Shown here: in pieces, positions 47,597 to 51,121 of the stretch
Numbering within the stretch: position 1 is the stretch's first letter
Layout of the letters: each line of letters opens with the position of its first letter
Made by a program: the position numbers and the translations under genes
Notes under the pieces: generated by a model
Seen by the model: the letters and a program-made list of their open reading frames with translations, nothing else
Database searches by the model: none
What the model was told of the DNA's origin: nothing
From: Meridianimarinicoccus roseus
Lineage (GTDB): Bacteria; Pseudomonadota; Alphaproteobacteria; Rhodobacterales; Rhodobacteraceae
Length of the DNA: 64,000 bases
Assembly (NCBI RefSeq): GCF_003172915.1
Contig: NZ_QGKU01000033.1
Coordinates: 124,001 to 188,000 of the forward strand
Reading direction: 5' to 3'

Positions 47597-48688
47597 CTAG
47601 CCATCCAGCCCCTGAAGAAAGCGCGCGACGGCATCTTCCAGCTTCTTGCGCTCCAACGCCGAGAAGTCAGCGTCACCGCGCAACTCCAGCCGCCCTTGCG
47701 AAGCCGTACACTTGATCGGACCAAGCGCGCTTTGCACTTGGAACGTTGTCCGCGCGGGCCGCGCGGTCGCTGGCTTGCGCGTTGAACGGTTCCCCGCGGG
47801 GAACCGCTTTTCAGACTCGGCGTCTGCTTCACAGAACTGTCGCAGCAACTCAAGCTCCTGTTCCGCGGTGCGCGCACCGTTTCCAATCAGAAGGGCCTCG
47901 AGTTCATGCAAGCTTTCCGGTTCGTCCTCGAGCTTTTTGCGCAAGCTCAAGCCAAGCGCGCGCGGGATCGCGTTAGGGTGCTCCAGTCGCGGGCCAACCA
48001 TCGCAAGCATCTTTGCAAAAGCGCGGATATAACTGCGCTTCTGCTTGCCGGCCGAGCCGAAGAGCGTCTGCACAGCCTCGTCCAGCGAGGTCGCCGATGT
48101 CTCCACGTCGTCGGCATACGCCTGCGCCAGCGCAGCCATCTCCGCGAAGCTGACATCGGACCGGATCAGGTTCTCATCCACCATCCGGCGATACAGCGTG
48201 TCGAGGGTTTCGCCCTGCTCCATCACGACAGCCGGGATCTCCGCATATCCGCCGCCGGGCGTGCTCTCGTCTAGACGGCGATAGGCCGACAAGCGCCGCA
48301 AGCCCTGCACCAGCTCAAACCCGTCATCCGACCGCTCGACTTGGATCGGATTTGACAAACCGATCGCGCGGATACTGTCGCACAGTTCCTGCAGGCCCTC
48401 GGGATCAACCTCCCGCCGGTCGCGGGTCAACTTGCTCGTGCGGATACTGTCCAGCGGAACCCGCTGCATGACAAGCCCCTGCCCCTTTAGCCGCACGAAT
48501 TCATGAGCAAGCGCGTCGTTCTCGTCCCGGATTGCTTTCTCGGCCTCGGCACGTGCACGCAATGAATCCGCATTTTCTCGCACAGCGCTGGCCATCGGCC
48601 CCCTGCGCACGTCCGTGATGGGTTCGGGCTGAGGCGCTGCCGCCTCCTCGGGCATCTCGATGTCGAACATCCTGCGCTTGCGGCTCAT
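47597..48688 (-). CDS. parB: ParB/RepB-family plasmid partition protein
   Basis: 363 residues. A ParB N-domain is visible: 'VPLDSIRTSKLTRDRR' (about 77-92), 'LCDSIRAIGLSNPIQVERSD', 'LVQGLRRLSAYRRLDE' (about 126-141). A HTH-type middle part follows ('ENLIRSDVSFAEMAALAQAY', about 171-190). ParB binds centromere-like sites and is moved by ParA to segregate replicon copies. ATG 48688 overlaps the parA stop (ATGA). Its coding region contains a 20-bp palindrome (47787-47806) shared with parA, a likely binding site. Confidence 0.9.
   Translation of the reverse strand: MSRKRRMFDIEMPEEAAAPQPEPITDVRRGPMASAVRENADSLRARAEAEKAIRDENDALAHEFVRLKGQGLVMQRVPLDSIRTSKLTRDRREVDPEGLQELCDSIRAIGLSNPIQVERSDDGFELVQGLRRLSAYRRLDESTPGGGYAEIPAVVMEQGETLDTLYRRMVDENLIRSDVSFAEMAALAQAYADDVETSATSLDEAVQTLFGSAGKQKRSYIRAFAKMLAMVGPRLEHPNAIPRALGLSLRKKLEDEPESLHELEALLIGNGARTAEQELELLRQFCEADAESEKRFPAGNRSTRKPATARPARTTFQVQSALGPIKCTASQGRLELRGDADFSALERKKLEDAVARFLQGLDG
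47787..47806. repeat. parS-like palindrome inside parB
   Basis: Perfect 20-bp palindrome CGGTTCCCCGCGGGGAACCG. Its 16-bp core GTTCCCCGCGGGGAAC recurs exactly in parA at 48994-49009. This is the size and form expected of a ParB-binding centromere site. Confidence 0.65.
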
Positions 48689-49995
48689 GCCTTGTCCTCC
48701 ATCTCATCCCACGCCTTGATCAACGTCTCGCGAAACTCGCCATAGGCTCGGTCGAATGTTGCCCTCGCTCGCCGCCAGGTCTCACGAGTCATGTTGCGGT
48801 AGTCGATTTCATAGACCGAACTGAGGAAACGTCCGGACTGTTCCACTGCACGTGTCAGCTCGATCGGGTGCTCCGCCAGGCGGTCGCCGAACACCTTTCC
48901 GAACGCATCATACATCGCGCGATGCAGGTCGTTGCCAGGTTCAAAACGGGTCAGAAGAAAGCGCACATCCAGAAACGCTTTTGGGGATCCGGCGTTCCCC
49001 GCGGGGAACGACACCTGGCTGAACCCGGCGTCCAGATCTTCCAAAGCCTCGCTCAACTGGCCGATGAAACTGGTGGTGCTGTCATACTCCCAGTAGCCAG
49101 GACCAGACGGAACATAGAGTACGTCCGCCGCAAAGACGGCGTTCATTGACTGATAGCCAATCGCAGGCGGACAGTCGAAAATGATCAAGTCATAGCTGTC
49201 GTCGGGAATCTGGTCGAGATAGCGAGCGACCGCCGCGAAGAAGGACCAATCAGGATTTAGGTGCCGATACTGCGCCGACGCGAATTCAACGAAGGCCGCA
49301 TTGGCACAAGACGGAATGATATCGATGGTCGGCCAGCTCGTCGCCTGAATGAAATCCGCGACGCGAAGATCCTCCAGACCCATGTCCCGAACCGACGCGG
49401 GCAGACGCCTCTGGGGCAGGGCGGTTCCACTGGCAGCACCGGTTACTGCACTGTTCATCCGGTCCGTCTCCCGGATAAGATCACGCGCCATGATGCCCCA
49501 GACGGTGTGATCCTCGCTCACATCGCTCAGCCCCATGGAATGGCTCAGGGTCGCTTGCGGATCGAAATCCACACACAGAACACGGTAGCCATCCAGCGCC
49601 GCAGCGTGGGCGAAGTGCAGCGCTACCGTAGACTTGCCGGCCCCGCCCTTGAAGTTGGCGATTGCAGCACGGATTGCGCGCTTGCCCTGTGGCCTGGGCG
49701 GAAGCAGCGTCTTGCGGTTAATCTTCATACGACGGCGCAACTCGTTGATCTCCTCAAGAGAGAACCAACGCTGACGGCCATCCTCCTCAACCTCGCCGGC
49801 AGGCAGGCTGGGATCCGCCGCCAGCCTCCCGCGGAACGTCGACTGGTTGACCCTGAATATCAGTTCCGACACCTCCCATGAGGAAAACCGGCGCAGTGTC
49901 TTCTCCAGTTCCGGTGAATAGGTCTGCCTGCGGATCCAACCCTGAAGCTTCAGCGATTGTGCCTGCAGCGCCTGCAAGTCCTGATAGGTGTACAT
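48685..49995 (-). CDS. parA: ParA-family plasmid partition ATPase with N-terminal HTH region
   Basis: 436 residues, the long (type Ia) form. The N-terminal about 110 residues include a MerR-like segment 'SSWEVSELIFRVNQSTFRGR' for autoregulation, followed by 'RWFSLEEINELRRRM'. The ATPase domain has deviant Walker A 'NFKGGAGKSTVALHFAHAAA' (about 114-133), 'CVDFDPQATLSHSMG' (Walker A') and Walker B 'DLIIFDCPPAIGYQ' (about 268). It separates replicon copies together with ParB. ATG 49995 faces the replicase gene across a 436-nt region. Confidence 0.92.
   Translation of the reverse strand: MYTYQDLQALQAQSLKLQGWIRRQTYSPELEKTLRRFSSWEVSELIFRVNQSTFRGRLAADPSLPAGEVEEDGRQRWFSLEEINELRRRMKINRKTLLPPRPQGKRAIRAAIANFKGGAGKSTVALHFAHAAALDGYRVLCVDFDPQATLSHSMGLSDVSEDHTVWGIMARDLIRETDRMNSAVTGAASGTALPQRRLPASVRDMGLEDLRVADFIQATSWPTIDIIPSCANAAFVEFASAQYRHLNPDWSFFAAVARYLDQIPDDSYDLIIFDCPPAIGYQSMNAVFAADVLYVPSGPGYWEYDSTTSFIGQLSEALEDLDAGFSQVSFPAGNAGSPKAFLDVRFLLTRFEPGNDLHRAMYDAFGKVFGDRLAEHPIELTRAVEQSGRFLSSVYEIDYRNMTRETWRRARATFDRAYGEFRETLIKAWDEMEDKA
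48993..49010. repeat. parS-like palindrome inside parA
   Basis: Perfect 18-bp palindrome CGTTCCCCGCGGGGAACG with the same 16-bp core as the site in parB. No third copy was noticed elsewhere in the window. Confidence 0.65.
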
Positions 49996-50005
49996 CGTGC
50001 CTCAC

Positions 50006-50431
50006 TAGACGTTATTTCTGCTCTTCTCCTGAAATACGCCGATTAGACAAAATAGGCAAAAGGGAATATCGTTACTTTCATCGGAATGCGATATTTCCGC
50101 AAAGTCCTATGTCGGCACGAGTTTCTGCCGAATCAGTTATCTCCGTTGATGCCGCCACGAGATAGAGTGGCATAGCCGAAAGAGGGGACAAAATACCTGC
50201 TCCTCGGCATAAAGGGGGGACAGGAATGACGACAAGGGGGACAAACTGAGTGTCCCCCATTACCAATGAACCCAATTTTTAATTCCATTTCTGGATCGAT
50301 CTGCCCTGTTCCGCTATCGAGGATTGACTCATCAAAGTTTTGGACGTTAAATCCAGAAACAATCGGAAAAGCGTCCTAAGCAACAAGGGCGCAGGGGTAA
50401 CAGCCCCAAGAGGCAGAGCAGGAGCAGGCCA
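50006..50431. other. non-coding region between parA and rep: probable origin and promoters
   Basis: No gene is visible here. The stretch is noticeably more A/T-rich than the rest of the window. It contains an inverted repeat AATATCG/CGATATT (50065-50071, 50089-50095) near the parA promoter side and iteron-like GGGGACA repeats in the middle. An A/T-rich segment (50270-50350, AATTTTTAATTCC) that could melt lies on the rep side. This layout fits a replication origin with divergent promoters (inference). Confidence 0.6.
50184..50258. repeat. iteron-like GGGGACA repeats with a terminal inverted copy
   Basis: Direct copies occur at 50184-50190 (GGGGACA), 50215-50222 and 50236-50243 (both GGGGGACA), 32 and 21 nt apart by their right ends, close to whole helical turns. 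An inverted copy TGTCCCCC at 50251-50258 makes an 8-bp stem with the third copy around AACTGAG. These are candidate binding sites for the adjacent replicase. Confidence 0.6.
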
Positions 50432-51121
50432 ATGCTGGCCACGCGACCATTAAGGCAGGGTTCTGCCTCCAAGAAGTACGACGTGTTGACGGCTCTCGGC
50501 GTCCATGCATGTGCGGGAAGTAAATTCCAGCAACGGCTTATCCTACGGTTCATGACCGCGATCACGGCCAGATACAATTGGCAGCGCGACGAACTGACGA
50601 TGGGTAGAACGGAACTCGCTCGCCTGTGGCAAGTCGACGAACGCACAGTGAAACGGGAGCTGGCCAAATTGAAGGCATGCGGCTGGTTATGCGTGAAACG
50701 GCCGGCGGCGCGGGGCAGGGTGACAGCCTATTCCATCGACTGGGACCGCATCCTGTCAGATACCCGCCCCTGCTGGGACTATGTGGGGTCTGACTTCACA
50801 ACCAGACTGTCCACACTGGCGGGTGCGGCTCAACCGGCCGACCAGCCGGACCGTACTGTCATTGCTTTTCCGGCAGCCGCTTCTCCAAGCGACACCGAAT
50901 GGGACCATGCTCTCGCGCTTCTGCACCGCGCGGACCCCGCCTTTCACGCCAATTGGTTGGCCAGCGTCCAGCGCCGGGCTCTCAGCCAAGGCATCCTTGA
51001 ACTCGAAGCGCCAACCGCGTTCCAGGCCGAATACCTCAACACTCATGCAGGGGCCCGGATCACTCGCGCGGTCCAAACCTTCGCGCCACAGGTTCACAGG
51101 GTGATCGTTCGTCCGGCATAA
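50432..51121 (+). CDS. DnaA-like plasmid replication initiator
   Basis: 229 residues. The N-terminal half holds a winged-helix DNA-binding region ('MGRTELARLWQVDERTVKRE', about 67-86, then 'ELAKLKACGWLCVKRPAARG'). The C-terminal 70 residues ('WDHALALLHRADPAFHANWL', 'LELEAPTAFQAEYLNTHAG') match the small N-terminal interaction domain of DnaA. That combination defines the DnaA-like replicases of Rhodobacterales plasmids; there is no AAA+ ATPase domain. It is transcribed away from parA, with iteron-like repeats upstream. ATG 50432 follows GGAGCAGG. Its job is to open the origin and recruit the host replisome. Confidence 0.85.
   Translation: MLATRPLRQGSASKKYDVLTALGVHACAGSKFQQRLILRFMTAITARYNWQRDELTMGRTELARLWQVDERTVKRELAKLKACGWLCVKRPAARGRVTAYSIDWDRILSDTRPCWDYVGSDFTTRLSTLAGAAQPADQPDRTVIAFPAAASPSDTEWDHALALLHRADPAFHANWLASVQRRALSQGILELEAPTAFQAEYLNTHAGARITRAVQTFAPQVHRVIVRPA

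Follow-up and report, generated by a model that had tools for sequence, protein, structure and literature searches.

Organisation and type of the locus

Does the 64,000-nucleotide stretch of Meridianimarinicoccus roseus DNA analysed here (the window) belong to the chromosome or to a replicon of its own and, in the latter case, how might that replicon be copied, segregated and shared between strains? The question is raised by three adjacent genes on a 210-kb contig (C27), which further along also carries flagellar and chemotaxis genes:

47597-48688, minus strand: parB, RepB-like partition protein, 363 aa (ORF, Pfam, TIGR)
48685-49995, minus strand: parA, RepA-like partition ATPase, 436 aa (ORF, Pfam, TIGR)
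50432-51121, plus strand: replication initiator of the DnaA-like type, 229 aa (ORF, Pfam, structure model)

We consider it very likely that this region serves a large, low-copy DnaA-like replicon, probably a chromid, as its replication-partition module. A preliminary description had placed a 229-residue initiator opposite a parAB operon across an A/T-rich region, and this layout was recovered in full, with the open reading frames at the positions given and an intergenic gap of 436 bp containing 51% A+T versus 34% for the whole window. The longest of the open reading frames of at least 50 aa touching the gap has 106 aa. ParA matches AAA_31 at 4.8e-26 (Pfam) and partition_RepA at 7.5e-59 (TIGR03453; 199.5 bits, cut-off 348.45), while ParB matches ParB_N at 3.7e-8 (Pfam). 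A divergent parA lies beside the initiator in 79 of 80 related loci, which were drawn from 394 confirmed relatives; the exception (L182) has just 568 bases before the gene.

The DnaA-like type (Petersen et al. 2011, as cited in other papers) shares with this module a DnaA N-terminal-domain replicase beside divergent parAB. Assignment of the module to this plasmid type of Rhodobacterales, as originally suggested, is supported both by the adjacent parAB and by a tree of 27 hand-picked rows, whose references include neither compatibility group III nor IV. In this tree a 100/100 split puts the initiator and four DnaA-like I references on one side, where the initiator occupies a 7-row branch of its own (100/100). 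The initiator is matched by 289 plasmid records, with a coverage of 80% or more in every case, and the plasmids among the matches listed (40 and 60 rows) bear names which we take to be those of Rhodobacterales. One of the 80 related genome loci is labelled as a Sphingomonadales MAG.

The initiator combines a winged helix with a DnaA domain-I-like fold

The predicted architecture of the initiator is a winged helix, a disordered linker (residues ~135-148) and a DnaA domain-I-like C-terminal domain, the first and last of which had been proposed from the sequence. The DnaA_N match of the window protein itself is slightly under the Pfam cut-off (E 3.9e-5; 23.7 bits against 24.6). Its relatives make the assignment clearer: DnaA_N is matched by 51, and HTH_Crp_2 by 45, of the 53 members (E <= 0.01) of an alignment comprising the window initiator and 52 of the 80 related loci (A2; L158 was excluded for a stop in range, and the rest were removed on visual inspection, either as near-duplicates or to limit the size of the set). 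In the structure model (mean pLDDT 88.8, pTM 0.57), the winged-helix part is predicted at residues ~11-132 and the domain-I fold at residues ~150-229, the latter resembling DnaA domain I (4tps_B, Z 12.8; 2wp0_C, Z 10.7) and, more weakly, the DnaB loader DciA (Z 8.0 and 7.8, near the chance range). A single-sequence search of solved structures with the initiator returned 0 matches, and a profile search retrieved DnaA domain I at E 0.0029, 0.011, 0.03 and 0.2. Unrelated rows were interspersed in the profile search (e.g. flagellin at E 0.048), and six matches in a viral structure library (E <= 0.001) were uninformative, being mostly winged-helix proteins at low coverage.

The protein shares with chromosomal DnaA a modelled domain-I fold but differs in its reversed domain order, with the DNA-binding part first, and in its lack of an AAA+ motor, no such family being present in the Pfam search or in the structure model. 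The chromosomal DnaA family TIGR00362 is matched by residues 169-222 only (E 0.04). At 229 aa, without AAA+ and without a C-terminal DNA-binding domain, the initiator is not itself a chromosomal DnaA.

Ordered repeats between parA and the initiator gene

The gap contains several elements, of which the ordered repeat array was absent from the preliminary description:

50184-50243, plus strand: three direct GGGGACA repeats, putative iterons (starts 50184, 50216 and 50237; sequence and related loci)
50251-50257, minus strand: inverted GGGGACA copy (TGTCCCC on the plus strand), 14 bp past the third repeat
50324-50352, plus strand: promoter-like motif for the initiator gene, TTGACT-17 bp-TTAAAT (read from sequence)
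50342-50376, no strand: inverted repeat GGACG...CGTCC spanning the promoter, a possible operator (read from sequence)

The direct repeats are spaced by 32 and 21 bp. The same triple, with each spacing within 1 bp, is found in 74 of the 80 related loci and is missing in 6, and the inverted copy accompanies it in 71 of the 74 (here, as for the divergent parA above and the palindromes below, these are plain locus counts, kinship among loci included). The triple exceeds chance expectation, because none of 1600 shuffled upstream regions has it, and it occurs once in the 210-kb contig. In some loci, counts of single repeats also take in parS palindrome half-sites. Words resembling the promoter are present in same-genus relatives, and the GGACG...CGTCC inverted repeat is visible in L010-L013 too. 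A literature search on the DnaA-like type together with iterons or parS, with the founding paper outside its scope, found no description of either.

We propose that the GGGGACA iterons are the binding sites of the winged helix and that initiator molecules set in phase by the two spacings (~3 and ~2 helical turns) would bend the A/T-richer gap and open it. Next, the domain-I module would recruit the host replicative helicase DnaB, replacing the missing AAA+ motor. DnaA domain I self-associates as well as binding DnaB, and this double role favours a second course for the same replicon, which we regard as the less probable but a serious contender: the module may instead pair with domain I of host DnaA, which would itself melt the origin and bring DnaB. 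DnaA-like plasmids may indeed depend on or work with the host replication machinery, according to the available text of PMC13386836. The weaker DciA match leans towards direct helicase contact, yet its Z scores lie near the chance range.

parS-like palindromes lie within the partition genes

Two copies of a parS-like palindrome are located inside the par genes and are translated in frame:

48994-49009, no strand: parS-like palindrome GTTCCCCGCGGGGAAC in parA, encoding FPAGN from residue 330
47789-47804, no strand: second copy of GTTCCCCGCGGGGAAC, in parB, encoding FPAGN from residue 296

No other exact copy exists in the 4.29-Mb genome, and across six same-genus genomes all 11 copies of the palindrome are on the contig of this rep-par module. 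Both fit, at the par locus, the 16-bp repABC-type parS consensus GTTNNNNGCNNNNAAC quoted in PMC9040568; the gapped parS pattern fits four words in C27, two of which are these palindromes. The probable centromere sites of the replicon sit within its own partition genes. Rhodobacterales repABC replicons, as far as the available text of PMC9040568 describes them, tend to have parS either in the repB-repC interval or downstream of repC. The window module resembles such systems in its RepA- and RepB-like ParA and ParB and in the fit of the palindrome, but is without RepC and has the palindromes inside parA and parB. The kind of replicon is already known; the placement of parS is the point of interest.

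In 56 of 79 related loci the parA palindrome lies at one fixed codon; in 23 its core is not inside parA. PAG is found at the site in 62 of 80 ParA sequences, 13 of which are not perfect palindromes there. These data can be combined with the origin repeats in a joint reading across DnaA-like replicons, to which we give slightly less than an even chance of being correct. The centromere would lie inside par coding sequence, a ParA pentapeptide at a fixed codon (FPAGN or VPAGT) would mirror the parS class, and the origins would share a near-fixed geometry with cores one base apart (GGGGACA for group-I-side and GGTGACA for group-II-side replicons). Were this so, ParA would carry FPAGN or VPAGT because the centromere sits at a fixed parA codon; the sequence would reveal the partition class and, less tightly, the class of origin, and any loss of the centromere would also affect the replicon's own motor gene. 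Group-II-side repeats read TGGTGACA or GGGTGACA, with only one direct copy found in C68 (group-II side). The one-base origin code is not strict, since exact GGGTGACA is also found within 450 bases upstream in 14 of 80 group-I-side loci. The parS-in-gene pattern offers a rule for partition specificity within a plasmid family that can be put to the test, and the repeat signature a simple means of spotting DnaA-like origins. For the replicon in question, ParB would load on the two in-gene palindromes and ParA would move the copies apart, keeping a molecule of at least 210 kb in both daughter cells.

The contig is probably a secondary replicon

The nearest plasmid is pSC52_3 (CP049031.1), a closed circle of 273,781 bp with an initiator 67% and a ParA 96.6% identical to those of the window. 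It aligns with 77% of the window, has palindromes at the same two places in the par genes, and contains counterparts of the polysaccharide, sarcosine oxidase/glutamine-synthetase-type and allophanate/cysteine hydrolase (biuret-type) blocks. It differs in its G+C content (57.5% versus 66.1% for C27) and in the genes directly after the initiator, and about half of C27 is unaligned. Chromosomal core genes had been named in advance as the finding that would speak against a separate replicon. No rRNA or tRNA was found on C27 at the Rfam gathering score, nor were ribosomal protein L22 or class-I tRNA synthetases, and a chromosomal location was rejected on these grounds. The missing tRNAs are weak evidence, because the 4.29-Mb genome has just ~45. 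A doubtful ARAGORN tRNA-Thr (93 nt, L041:11038-11130) was set aside because no Rfam family matches it at the gathering score. With this closed syntenic plasmid and a contig free of the core genes sought, the extrachromosomal location proposed in the preliminary description is well supported by sequence.

The module alone is no proof of a separate replicon, because in the relative G005 it lies on a 511,744-bp contig that also has tRNA-Arg and tRNA-Asn. The module could be a plasmid remnant integrated in the chromosome, C27 then being a chromosomal piece, and plasmid integration in Sulfitobacter is discussed in PMC13386836. Such a reading would suit the chromosome-like G+C of the contig, its flagellar and chemotaxis genes and its ends, between which the suggested circularity check found no overlap, leaving the contig unclosed. 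We nevertheless judge it very unlikely given the absent core genes, the long alignment with a closed plasmid and the intact state of rep, par and repeats.

The G+C content of the contig (66.1%) is close to the 65.9% of 18 pieces of tRNA- or rRNA-bearing contigs, a difference within the 2.5% used to define chromids; a parAB partition operon, as carried by the module, is also among the chromid criteria in the available text of PMC9025767. Codon-usage distances from the contig to two chromosomal samples are 0.70 and 0.71, compared with 0.38 between those samples and 0.91-0.96 for C68. The Paracoccus DnaA-like chromids (pAMI5, P. denitrificans chromosome II, P. yeei) resemble the replicon in their related initiator, large size, parAB and chromosome-like G+C and, in what is available of PMC3925955 and PMC11578231, differ in genus and cargo.

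Mobility and cargo

The polysaccharide, methylamine and biuret genes had been described as plasmid- or chromid-borne and mobile between strains. The first part agrees with the counterparts on pSC52_3, but the second is not supported: the transfer families PF03432, PF03389 and PF02534 have no match on C27 (the replicon may extend beyond this contig), the PLSDB mobility type of pSC52_3 is non-mobilizable, and the same type is given to 268 of the 289 plasmids that carry the initiator. Another 15 are mobilizable and 6 conjugative and cargo varies among same-genus relatives, as would be expected of a recently acquired mobilizable plasmid. We find that origin very improbable, since G+C is host-like in G000, G002 and G006 and the backbone common to G002 and G006 is 69-87% identical (alignments > 500 bp), resembling a tRNA-bearing contig in which one 10-kb segment is 70-78% identical in the same two genomes (long matches). 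The replicon instead appears long settled in its host and not freely mobile, so that a chromid fits better than a mobile plasmid. The analysis assigns metabolic, polysaccharide and flagellar genes to a secondary replicon that controls its own replication and segregation, and speaks against regarding them as freely mobile.

The cargo of the replicon varies between same-genus relatives. At the corresponding place, G002 has no biuret-type block and is without the C27 blocks at 142.9-149 kb and 154.8-169 kb. In G003, G004 and G005 the module stands in other surroundings with little shared beyond the module itself (coverage was 80.0 of 85.3 kb for G004:C26 and, in 22 pieces, 440 of 511.7 kb for G005:C14).

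A DnaA-like replication and partition module

The module lies on a 210,318-bp contig (C27) of the 4.29-Mb, 69-contig draft genome (G000), of which the window spans C27 positions 124001-188000, and all three open reading frames named in the preliminary description are present where it had placed them. Its features, in window coordinates except for the last, are as follows.

Features of the module, and the second module of the same genome
47597-48688, minus strand: parB
47789-47804: palindrome GTTCCCCGCGGGGAAC, inside parB
48685-49995, minus strand: parA, overlapping parB by 4 bp
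48994-49009: palindrome GTTCCCCGCGGGGAAC, inside parA
50184, 50216 and 50237, plus strand: direct repeats GGGGACA, upstream of the initiator
50251: inverted repeat copy TGTCCCC, upstream of the initiator
Downstream of the repeat array: promoter-like TTGACT-17-TTAAAT, overlapped by an inverted repeat
50432-51121, plus strand: initiator
G000:C68:24695-25357 (locus L028): second DnaA-like module

In profile searches ParA and ParB resemble RepA and RepB of repABC plasmids with scores under the family cut-offs, and the initiator alone matches the DnaA N-terminal domain slightly under the Pfam cut-off. In an alignment of 53 initiator proteins, DnaA_N was matched by 51 and HTH_Crp_2 by 45 (E <= 0.01), and with these relatives included the sequence-based assignment of the DnaA domain becomes firm. 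No AAA+ domain was found in the initiator. Its AlphaFold model (mean pLDDT 88.8, pTM 0.57) consists of a winged-helix part, a low-confidence linker (residues 135-148) and a compact C-terminal domain. Structure alignment of the latter with solved DnaA domain I gave Z scores of 12.8 (4tps_B; 80 residues, 2.6 Å) and 10.7 (2wp0_C); those with DciA, a DnaB helicase loader, were 8.0 and 7.8, close to chance level. The winged helix matched 4pt7, 5kbj ('Structure of initiator', 'Structure of Rep-DNA complex') and 4pql ambiguously (Z 7.3-7.8).

The initiator matches 289 PLSDB plasmid records, with coverage of its length at 80% or more in every case. One of them, pSC52_3 (CP049031.1, of Rhodobacteraceae bacterium SC52), is 60-80% identical; the other 288 are below 60%. 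The plasmid matches listed (40 in one search, 60 in another) carry what we take to be Rhodobacterales names, and one of 80 related loci kept from a scan of species genomes, on a 3.6-kb contig, is labelled as a Sphingomonadales MAG. The initiator is present in six of the seven genomes of the genus group (G000 and G002-G006) and absent from G001, a genome that is 74% complete. In a tree of 27 hand-picked rows, with references for DnaA-like groups I and II and none for III and IV (labels as given in PMC9025767, PMC3910543 and PMC6052148), it falls in a set of 19 that also holds Paracoccus denitrificans and four references of type DnaA-like I. This set is split (100/100) from a set of eight holding two DnaA-like II references, and within it the window's initiator is part of a separate seven-row branch (100/100). 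Given this grouping and the DnaA_N and HTH matches, the assignment to the DnaA-like plasmid type of Rhodobacterales was right; the module is of an already known kind, with two conserved details. Conservation is very uneven inside the module: compared with pSC52_3, ParA is 96.6% identical and the adjoining initiator 67%.

Phased repeats at the putative origin

Allowing one mismatch per repeat and spacings of 31-33 and 20-22 bp, the repeat triple is present in 74 of the 80 related loci, nowhere else on the contig and in none of 1600 mononucleotide shuffles. The exact spacing of 32, 21 and 14 bp recurs in 58/80 loci and the inverted copy in 71 of the 74 that have the triple. Counted singly, the motif occurs 2.64 times in an average locus and 0.13 times in dinucleotide-shuffled sequence, a count that includes parS half-sites in some loci. 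The two group-II references share the window's geometry with a GGTGACA core (TGGTGACA or GGGTGACA, spaced 32 and 22 bp); the core difference between the group sides is not strict, because exact GGGTGACA also lies upstream in 14/80 loci. DnaA-like plasmids, parS and iterons are mentioned in PMC3832669, where passages on iterons concern small plasmids.

parS-like palindromes within the partition genes

The two copies of GTTCCCCGCGGGGAAC inside parB and parA are the only exact ones in the whole genome. Six same-genus genomes hold 11 copies, in each case on the contig that bears the module, and the same sequence read backwards does not occur in those six genomes; pSC52_3 also carries it in both genes. 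Its sequence agrees with the parS consensus that PMC9040568 quotes for repABC replicons, and we predict that the palindromes are ParB binding sites. Most palindromes of the 80 loci belong to one of two classes: TGTCCCCGCGGGGACA has 112 perfect copies and GTTCCCCGCGGGGAAC has 50. Inside parA the core occupies one alignment column in 56/79 loci and reads in frame as VPAGT or FPAGN; PAG stands at this site in 62/80 ParA sequences, 57 of these 62 using CCC-GCG-GGG, for which codon usage in the same genes predicts about 4%. Kinship among loci inflates all of these counts. Two loci, L180 (three copies) and L182 (one copy), carry CTTACCCATGGGTAAG at the position expected for the CCCCGCGGGG core; it may represent a third parS class.

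From these conserved parts we infer the most likely mechanism: the winged helix of the initiator would bind the phased repeats, the replicative helicase would be recruited by the DnaA domain-I module, directly or via host DnaA, and ParB on the in-gene palindromes would act with ParA to segregate replicon copies.

A very likely extrachromosomal location of the contig

The nearest plasmid relative, pSC52_3, is closed, circular and 273,781 bp long. It aligns with 48% of the contig; for the window the share is 77%. Identity in alignments above 300 bp is 65-86%, and their order is for the most part conserved, a single block being inverted. The aligned blocks hold the polysaccharide genes as well as sarcosine oxidase, glutamine-synthetase-type, allophanate hydrolase, cysteine hydrolase and ABC transporter genes. 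At the Rfam gathering score the contig has neither rRNA nor tRNA; it also lacks ribosomal protein L22 and has none of the genome's nine matches to the class-I tRNA synthetase family PF00133; both 16S genes lie elsewhere (C22 and C42). With about 45 tRNAs per genome, their absence from 210 kb is weak evidence alone. Taken with the pSC52_3 alignment, these absences make it very likely that the contig is extrachromosomal, as the preliminary description had proposed. The contig ends do not overlap, which leaves a circular form unproven. ARAGORN calls a 93-nt tRNA-Thr on the contig (L041:11038-11130), which has no Rfam match and is probably false.

In the relative G005 the contig that carries the module (C14; loci L078-L097, L222, L223) is 511,744 bp long and also bears tRNA-Arg(tct) and tRNA-Asn(gtt); it has none of the nine PF00133 matches of G005 and no L22. 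This may be either an integrated module or a chromid bearing tRNA genes.

A probable chromid rather than a mobile plasmid

The G+C content of the contig is 66.1%, versus 65.9% in 18 pieces taken from contigs with tRNA or rRNA genes, and that of homologous contigs in two same-genus relatives follows their own hosts (G002, 67.7 versus 67.5%, 8 pieces; G006, 59.5 versus 58.1%, 6 pieces). Codon usage is close to, not equal to, that of two chromosomal samples (distances 0.70 and 0.71, versus 0.38 between the samples and 0.91-0.96 for C68, another contig). Blocks common with G002 extend across 93 kb of the 112.6-kb contig in that genome, covering 63% of it, and 88% of the 32-kb contig of G006 is shared. 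This backbone is 69-87% identical in alignments above 500 bp; a single 10-kb segment from a contig with tRNA genes, a thin base for comparison, gave 70-78% to G002 and G006 (matches above 500 bp). Contig blocks 142.9-149 and 154.8-169 kb (sarcosine oxidase, biuret-type) are missing at the corresponding place in G002. G003 and G005 have almost nothing but the module in common with the contig and G004 little more; the cargo therefore changes over longer times.

The cargo had been described as mobile between strains. This was not supported: the contig has no match to the three transfer families PF03432, PF03389 and PF02534, its G+C is host-like, and 268 of the 289 plasmids with the initiator are typed in PLSDB as non-mobilizable (15 mobilizable, 6 conjugative). 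A chromid is more probable than a mobile plasmid, and PMC11578231 and PMC3925955 describe chromids of the DnaA-like type in Paracoccus.

A second module and a flagellar cluster

The second initiator, on C68, is 39% identical to the window's and in the tree falls on the side of group II; its module has one clear direct repeat only. SC52 carries a matching pair of replicon types, pSC52_3 and pSC52_2 (L230; 352,381 bp), the initiator of the latter being 70.9% identical to the C68 protein. Outside the window, at about 9-63 kb of C27, lie flagellar and chemotaxis genes: sigma-54, rod and hook proteins (Flg_bbr_C, FlgE_D2), a sigma-70-type factor, FliF and FliG, with a CheA-like protein (Hpt and CheW domains), CheW and a ParA-like ATPase adjoining CheW. 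The flagellar cluster sits on a DnaA-like replicon.
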